From Pseudomonas sp. KU26590 (lineage in GTDB: Bacteria > Pseudomonadota > Gammaproteobacteria > Pseudomonadales > Pseudomonadaceae), in assembly GCF_026153515.1 (NCBI RefSeq), contig NZ_CP110644.1, positions 186,001 through 250,000 on the forward strand: DNA of 64,000 nt. Direction: 5' to 3'. Numbering within the stretch: position 1 is the stretch's first letter; the number at the start of each line of letters is the position of its first letter. The position numbers were made by a program, and so were the translations under genes. The notes under the pieces are model-generated. The model was not told where the DNA came from. It saw only the letters and a list, made by a program, of their open reading frames with translations, and did no database searches. Below are positions 62,763 to 64,000 of the stretch, in pieces.

Positions 62763-62783
62763 GCGTTGAACCCTGACGGTGCT

Positions 62784-62938
62784 CAGGCGCAGTGCGCAAT
62801 GCGCTGAACCTGGGCCTTGATGGCCTGCCCTCGCTCGATCTCTGCTTTGCGCAGGTCGTAGGTAAGTTGCAAGTTCAGCCAGAACTCCGGAGTGATCTCA
62901 AAACCGGGCGCCAGCCGTAACGCCATGTCGGCGCTGTC
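62784..62938 (-). pseudogene. Severed C-terminus of a HigA antitoxin
   Basis: The open frame reads DSADMALRLAPGFEITPEFWLNLQ then LTYDLRKAEIERGQAIKAQVQRIAHCA and ends at TGA 62784-62786. That is the C-terminal half of a HigA/VapI antitoxin (the segment after the HTH turn, with the usual EFWLNLQ-YDL pattern). An in-frame TAG lies just before it, and no start with a ribosome site is near. Its N-terminal counterpart is fused to the GNAT gene next door; about 25 residues of the HTH are missing. Expression is unlikely. Confidence 0.8.
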
Positions 62939-62953
62939 CTATGAAGGATTTGT

Positions 62954-63487
62954 TCAGTTACCCACTGACGGGCAGCCTTGAGCAGCGTGCCGAGCATAAT
63001 AATTATCAAATTCGCCAGCTTCGACGAACTGAAAACCATGACGAGTGTAGAACCGATTTGAAGCGCTTTCCTTCAGAGCCCCAACGTATAACGTCAGTGC
63101 CGCCGCATCTGTTTCCGTAAAGATCTGACGAAGGACAATCGAACCTATTCCTGATCCTTGTGCGCCTGGCTTGATGTAGAGGTGATCGAGCAACAGTCCG
63201 TCGATACGCGGCTTGACCACGACAAAACCCACCCGCTTTCCGGCAACCAAAACGTGACGAGTAAACTCGGGGGAAAAGCCTTCACGAAAACGCTTTCGGG
63301 CGCGCACGGGATCAAATCGACCAATGCGCTCAAGACTCTCACGCATGGCGTCGATCCGGATGGCAACAAGCGCCTCGAAGTCACAGGCTCGGGCCCCGGC
63401 GAACGTCACCTTAGTGGCCAACGGCTCGAGAAACTCCTCGCTTGGAATTTCCCCTGGATGCACGGGCCCTTCTCCATTACTGGTCAT
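62954..63487 (-). CDS. GNAT acetyltransferase with HigA-derived N-terminus
   Basis: Protein of 177 residues from ATG 63485-63487, which follows GGAGGG. Residues 1-27 (MTSNGEGPVHPGEIPSEEF then LEPLATKV) match the N-terminus of HigA antitoxins, whose hallmark is HPGEIL-EEFL-PL. From about residue 28 it is a GNAT domain: ARACDFEALVAIRIDAMRESLERIGRFDP, LLLDHLYIKPGAQGSGIGSIVL with the acetyl-CoA loop QGSGIG, and NRFYTRHGFQFVE. The GNAT's own start is gone, and the rest of higA lies downstream (62784-62938). It may be expressed from the old higA signals. Substrate unknown. Confidence 0.78.
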   Translation of the reverse strand: MTSNGEGPVHPGEIPSEEFLEPLATKVTFAGARACDFEALVAIRIDAMRESLERIGRFDPVRARKRFREGFSPEFTRHVLVAGKRVGFVVVKPRIDGLLLDHLYIKPGAQGSGIGSIVLRQIFTETDAAALTLYVGALKESASNRFYTRHGFQFVEAGEFDNYYARHAAQGCPSVGN

Positions 63488-63603
63488 CACTCCTCCCTCC
63501 TTCCATTCATACACATGCCGTAGAACATGCATGGGGGCACGCGTTGGAGCAATGACTATCCTTAAGCTCGCCGCAGGAAGCGGTGCTGCCTTCAAGGAAA
63601 GAC

Positions 63604-64000
63604 ATGTCCCTCGCGATCGTTCTGAGCCGTGCCCAAGTTGGCGTTGAAGCGCCTGCCGTGACCGTCGAAACCCATCTCGCCAATGGGTTGCCCAGCCTGA
63701 CGCTGGTGGGTCTGCCGGAAGGTGCGGTGAAGGAAAGCAAGGATCGGGTGCGCAGTGCGATCCTCAACTGTCGGCTGGAATTCCCGGCGCGGCGCATCAC
63801 CTTGAATCTGGCGCCTGCCGATTTGCCCAAGGACGGCGGACGCTTCGATCTTGCCATCGCGCTTGGCTTGCTGGCCGCCAGCGCGCAGGTGCCGACCCTT
63901 GCGCTGGAGGGCATCGAATGCCTGGGGGAGCTGGCGTTGTCGGGAGCGATTCGGCCCGTGCAGGGGGTGCTCCCGGCGGCACTGGCTGCGCGTGAGGCGG
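63604..64000 (+). CDS. comM: Mg-chelatase-like ComM/YifB, 5' part
   Basis: AAA+ helicase ComM, which extends branch migration during natural transformation; only the first 132 residues are in the window. MSLAIVLSRAQVGVEAPAVTVETHLANGLPSLTLVGLPEGAVKESKDRVRSAILN and ITLNLAPADLPKDGGRFDLAIALGLLAAS are the conserved N-terminal blocks of the YifB/ComM family. It is divergent from the GNAT/higA gene. The frame is open to the right edge. Confidence 0.92.
   Translation, partial: MSLAIVLSRAQVGVEAPAVTVETHLANGLPSLTLVGLPEGAVKESKDRVRSAILNCRLEFPARRITLNLAPADLPKDGGRFDLAIALGLLAASAQVPTLALEGIECLGELALSGAIRPVQGVLPAALAAREA

Follow-up and report, generated by a model that had tools for sequence, protein, structure and literature searches.

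Probable capture of a HigA antitoxin start by an acetyltransferase gene at a decayed higBA locus in Pseudomonas graminis, P. petrae and their relatives

Between ubiK and comM in Pseudomonas sp. KU26590, a gene for a GNAT-type acetyltransferase is set into a higA antitoxin gene, so that the beginning of the antitoxin fronts the enzyme and its end lies detached behind it. We consider it highly probable that a higBA module decayed here and that a GNAT gene took over the start of its antitoxin on one occasion, the enzyme having been kept by selection since. Comparison of sequences establishes that both halves of HigA are present, that relatives carry the ancestral module at this site, that higB and TAACGTTA are lost, that the fused genes belong to one clade and that the GNAT is constrained. 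We propose that a chromosomal higB-higA module between ubiK and comM decayed, that the toxin gene and the operator region were lost in an ancestor of P. graminis and P. petrae, and that a GNAT gene, short of a few codons at its beginning, took the place of the helix-turn-helix part of higA with the reading frame intact. Translation of the enzyme would now begin at the higA start codon, which puts 23 antitoxin residues in front of it. The order of these events, and illegitimate recombination as their mechanism, we infer.

The window, that is, the whole stretch of 64,000 nucleotides analysed, belongs to a genome assembled as one contig of 6.18 Mb. The fused gene (62954-63487, minus strand, as are its parts and the detached HigA half) encodes a product of 177 amino acids, with HigA-derived residues 1-23 followed by a complete GNAT domain. 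The leader, which includes the start codon, takes up 63419..63487, and the GNAT part with its own stop takes up 62954..63418, in the place of HigA codons 24-51. The detached C-terminal half of HigA lies at 62783..62938, and an ATG at 62926, 27 nt past the GNAT stop, opens a frame of 47 codons within it. The first-pass annotation had described just such an arrangement, a HigA-type N-terminus in frame with a GNAT and a HigA C-terminus past its stop, and had also reported the TAG, which precedes the downstream frame in the window. The register of that frame relative to the GNAT varies among relatives, the window and Pseudomonas sp. CFBP 13711 differing from the other three fused genomes compared. 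Upstream, the interval 63488..63603 separates the fused gene from comM, which starts at 63604, is whole in this genome (497 aa) and encodes a YifB/ComM-type ATPase (611 bits to TIGR00368). The neighbour on the other side is UbiK-like (PF04380, E 1.6e-24), yet under the NCBIfam UbiK cut-off. The genome holds a single match to the GNAT at E 0.001 and a single TIGR02607 match, namely the detached tail.

Both flanking pieces can be traced to one antitoxin. Positions 4-24 of the HigA profile TIGR02607 match product residues 8-28, weakly if taken alone (E 0.011). The downstream frame, for which a lack of HigA similarity had been raised as a possibility, matches profile positions 48-79 of 81 (E 3.6e-10). 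Its score of 39.5 bits lies under the cut-off of 47.7, as expected since only half of HigA is present, and Pfam gave no match for it. The weak score of the leader is settled by synteny, because HigA proteins above the TIGR02607 cut-off occupy the same site in relatives, where the leader corresponds to codons 1-23 of the intact HigA of genomes G234 and G068. A chance likeness of the leader to HigA is thereby ruled out. The alignment with strains carrying intact higBA that had been proposed thus recovers the ancestral module: in G234 and G068 an intact higB-higA pair stands beside ubiK, and its HigA end is about as far from ubiK as the tail is at the fused loci. At a typical intact locus HigB matches PF05015 at E 1.5e-17 and HigA scores 114 bits to TIGR02607.

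We surveyed the site from ubiK towards comM in 63 distinct genomes, with duplicates merged. Four carry the fusion, 17 carry higB and higA, five carry higA without a higB match, three retain a higA fragment and 34 have no hig gene, comM being beyond reach in two of the 17 and 14 of the 34; these counts are not frequencies, because ten of the 63 genomes were preselected for HigA. Two further HigA loci outside this set (L110 and L111) have no ubiK. The interval varies among Pseudomonas in other respects as well, spanning 55 to 2520 bases between matches. A gene for a Bro-N domain may stand in it beside higA (loci L092, L094, L095, L096 and L106; the one scanned matches PF02498 at E 2.9e-11). In two relatives the similarity to comM stops short, and at different places, after residue 79 at L154 and L032 and after residue 284 at L033, with no more match in the stretch examined. 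Only C-terminal scraps of higA, and no GNAT match, are found beside ubiK in G020 (L040/L098), G056 (L041) and G191 (L146), apparently through separate decay of the module. G020, whose UbiK is 97% identical, retains only the last 14 codons of higA, and its site has neither a GNAT nor a higB match.

What was lost at the fused locus? In intact HigA the HTH_3 domain spans residues 18-70, and relative to the HigA of G234 the fused allele has codons 24-51 replaced, inside the helix-turn-helix match. Profile positions 25-47 of TIGR02607 are absent from the fused locus, and no single chain contains an intact helix-turn-helix. The first-pass annotation was right that helix-turn-helix residues are missing, but its count of about 25 falls short of the 28 obtained by this alignment. 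In PaHigA, helices 2-3 form the helix-turn-helix and helices 4-5 the dimer interface, as described in PMC6987408; by position, the lost part would correspond to helices 2-3 and the tail to helices 4-5. The toxin is gone too. As had been claimed for the region upstream, there is no HigB in the genome of the window by PF05015 at E 0.01; that search was likewise negative in genomes G000 and G183, no HigB was found in G383, and the ubiK-comM interval of the four fused loci scanned has no higB match. The motif TAACGTTA stands upstream of higB at all 17 intact loci (several of them close relatives and not independent), and the scan found it at none of five fused loci and nowhere in the window. We read it as a putative HigA operator-like site because of PaHigA, whose palindrome TTAACGTTAA, as given in PMC6987408, it resembles.

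A trace of the former gene order may survive in P. petrae, which keeps TTGAGGTAAACCATGACC at the position of the higB stop and higA start of G234, ACTGAGGTAACTCCAATGACC; the stretch just before its start codon resembles the higB stop together with the higA ribosome site. With the intact higBA of relatives and the loss of higB and the operator-like site, this remnant supports the earlier suggestion that gene replacement left a scar in which an acetyltransferase begins with what was once the start of an antitoxin. A purine-rich stretch, AAGGAGGGAGGAGTG in the window, immediately precedes the ATG of the fused gene, which probably uses the ribosome site of the antitoxin, and the HigA start codon would serve translation of the GNAT in vivo. 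Expression of the fused gene is assumed, since no promoter match was found for it; one terminator-like site was seen, of a kind no commoner than in shuffled sequence.

The captured part is recognisable as a GNAT. It matches PF13508 at E 3.5e-11, and AlphaFold2 models a full GNAT fold (mean pLDDT 83.7, pTM 0.77), with residues 1-13 and 171-177 of the fused protein under pLDDT 50 and a short helix at 17-24. Foldseek returned 524 PDB matches at E 0.001, and the best 50 of these 524 are headed by acetyltransferases and include RimI, PA2271 and others. GNATs bind acetyl-CoA through the motif Q/R-x-x-G-x-G/A, which is present here as QGSGIG, with Q110, G113 and G115 invariant in 54 aligned rows. A search of PDB sequences gave two weak matches, AAC(3)-XI and phosphinothricin acetyltransferase, and the NCBIfam equivalog cut-offs were not reached for either AAC(3)-XI (27 bits vs 300) or RimI (32.8 bits vs 86.4). 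Over the five fused genomes compared (P. graminis DSM 11363, P. graminis UASWS1507, CFBP 13711, P. petrae and the window), omega of the GNAT is 0.129, with a 2dlnL of 108.7 against omega 1; the omega 1 fits were made on a kappa grid, and 2dlnL values are hence approximate. By this measure the GNAT part is under purifying selection. It would have been kept as an acetyltransferase, and enzyme activity itself is probable.

The leader tells a different story: its evolution over the same five genomes (omega 0.47, 2dlnL 2.7) is not distinguishable from neutral. In its 23 codons the pooled pN/pS is 0.36 in the fused set against 0.08 in seven intact HigAs. The P. graminis-type allele has a junction four codons shorter than that of P. 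petrae, P0005, P0007 and P0008, and in P0009, P0010, P0011 and P0013, which group with the fused clade on the sequence of their GNAT parts, the leader is no longer clearly HigA-like.

Where did the GNAT come from? Non-fused matches below E 1e-48 are 60-79% identical over the GNAT part; the donor locus was not found, the best free-standing relative being 79% identical, and a search for a plasmid source with the DNA of the locus gave no match. It had been conceded that close GNAT homologues in unrelated contexts might carry the same HPGEI-type N-terminus. Free-standing Pseudomonas GNATs of the same enzyme family (for example, a gene of G294) have other N-termini, and in 36 such loci, covered for about 1.5 kb on each side, a search at E 0.01 found neither hig nor ubiK nor comM. 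The sequence MQLQFSATDNP is present in free GNATs (P0025, which probably begins at that Met; P0034 begins MQLQF). Since the corresponding stretch of P. petrae is KPLSAADNT, the GNAT has probably lost only about five residues. Short homology may have helped to form the junction, since the intact HigA of G068 has TSAA near it. These neighbourhoods also bear on the idea that the locus is a toxin-antitoxin system of the GNAT-Xre type, with the GNAT as toxin and the HigA pieces as antitoxin, for which the PacTA module of P. aeruginosa (PMC9561280) is a precedent. Systems of the GNAT-RHH and GNAT-Xre kinds keep a DNA-binding antitoxin next to the GNAT. We regard this reading of the locus as extremely improbable: the helix-turn-helix part is deleted and the leader drifts, the 36 free-standing relatives lack a nearby hig match (the hig type being the one searched), and the best 50 of 524 fold matches include RimI, PA2271 and other acetyltransferases.

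Among the congeners sampled, full-length matches to the fused protein appear in two of 298 in one draw (G000 and G183) and two of 377 in another (G183 and G383). Fused copies occur in P. graminis DSM 11363, P. graminis UASWS1507, CFBP 13711 and P. petrae, the closest among named genomes being that of P. graminis DSM 11363, whose fused protein is 96% identical. In a tree of the window and 53 rows chosen from the best 120 of 2052 matches, the 14 fused-type GNATs (the window and P0001-P0013) form one clade among the 54 rows, with support of 100/99. This single clade, together with a stretch after the stop that is shared with only small changes in five genomes, rules out independent fusions. Among these five, pairwise pS of the GNAT ranges over 0.18-0.37 and that of comM (partial in two genomes) over 0.19-0.33, with ubiK at 0.07-0.18 and glnK at 0.02-0.07. 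A recent spread of the fused gene was rejected on the agreement between the GNAT and comM distances, though the lower distances of ubiK and glnK leave comM as the sole basis of the age argument.

The fate of the detached tail is less straightforward. Our initial expectation that it evolves neutrally was dropped after the selection tests, because omega, the codon-position pattern and the substitution pattern all pointed to constraint. Over the five fused genomes the tail has an omega of 0.178 with a 2dlnL of 25.4 (15.0-23.3 on leaving out any one genome), and its pooled pN/pS of 0.20 compares with 0.18 for codons 52-101 of intact HigA. Its 35 variable sites fall 7, 7 and 21 on codon positions 1, 2 and 3 (P 0.0003 under a spectrum from comM fourfold sites), and changes confined to single genomes comprise 16 synonymous, 13 replacement and one stop (P 0.001). 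As controls, 2dlnL was 2.4, 3.8, 3.4, 12.9 and 7.3 in the remaining five frames of the tail, four of which had an omega exceeding 1, and it was 0-4.4 in nine intergenic windows that overlap one another. The tail thus looks constrained and coding-like, as far as codon statistics can tell.

Such constraint could mean that the antitoxin now exists in two pieces, the 47-residue tail being reinitiated and functional, alone or with the leader, for example as a small dimerising protein or as an anti-addiction piece against an incoming HigB. As an addition to the capture of the start by the GNAT gene we hold this to be possible but doubtful. Besides the selection tests, it is favoured by the conservation of the ATG in five of five genomes, 26-27 nt past the GNAT stop, and by pS between fused and intact tails (0.59-0.73) that is not below that of comM (0.53-0.62). 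Against it, P. graminis DSM 11363, one of the five, has an in-frame nonsense codon in the tail, and the signal is concentrated in the first half (2dlnL 18.0), the second giving only 3.7. Controls can also be low, one reverse-strand frame reaching omega 0.29 (the 2dlnL of 12.9) and one intergenic window omega 0.11 (2dlnL 4.4). No ribosome-site-like sequence was seen before the ATG, and G000, G183 and G383 yielded no HigB. Proteins resembling the tail were searched for and fell into 12 clusters, of which four are 85-94% identical to the tail of the window; P0127 looks degraded, and some others resemble truncated calls of other HigAs. The fused-clade genome G421 has HigB and HigA genes at other loci (L148, L163 and L165), a possible partner for a leftover tail. 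The stronger version, in which HigA was split into two expressed parts on one message, a leader on the GNAT and a reinitiated, selection-kept peptide of 47 residues, both without the helix-turn-helix, seems to us quite improbable.

The constraint could instead be a by-product of recombination, if unsampled strains of the clade with an intact higA donate their tails. In its favour, the groupings of the genomes conflict at six sites of the tail, and which genome of the clade is nearest to which depends on the gene compared. Yet no intact higA was seen at the site in the five fused genomes or G020, and the tails stand at no smaller distance from G234 or G068 than comM does. We consider this explanation unlikely. 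Under the preferred reading, a single capture of the antitoxin start by the GNAT gene, the tail would be a leftover in slow decay or else a piece that is still translated, and we call it neither a simple fossil nor a proven live gene.

The locus shares its HigA profile with the higBA systems known from Pseudomonas (PaHigBA, the HigBA-family GraTA and higBA of P. putida), whose higB-higA order also holds at this site in relatives. It differs from them in having no toxin, no operator-like site and no helix-turn-helix, and in carrying an acetyltransferase in the middle of higA. Toxin loss has been described for pseudomonads, in which 27% of higBA homologous loci are without an intact toxin ORF according to PMC7280312; in the loci described there the toxin is truncated or absent, whereas here the start of the antitoxin would additionally have been captured. 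Recruitment of a toxin-antitoxin component into a new fused protein is paralleled by the FicTA module, from which the Bartonella effectors are described as originating (PMC5675462). In that case a toxin enzyme was joined to a secretion signal, whereas here a piece of an antitoxin precedes an enzyme unrelated to it. Our literature search returned no title on a HigA-acetyltransferase chimera. The P. graminis and P. petrae locus would thus show, across a whole clade and with relatives that still carry the ancestral arrangement, how a decaying addiction module can pass its start codon to a captured gene, and it offers a test of whether selection can maintain half an antitoxin once its toxin has been lost.
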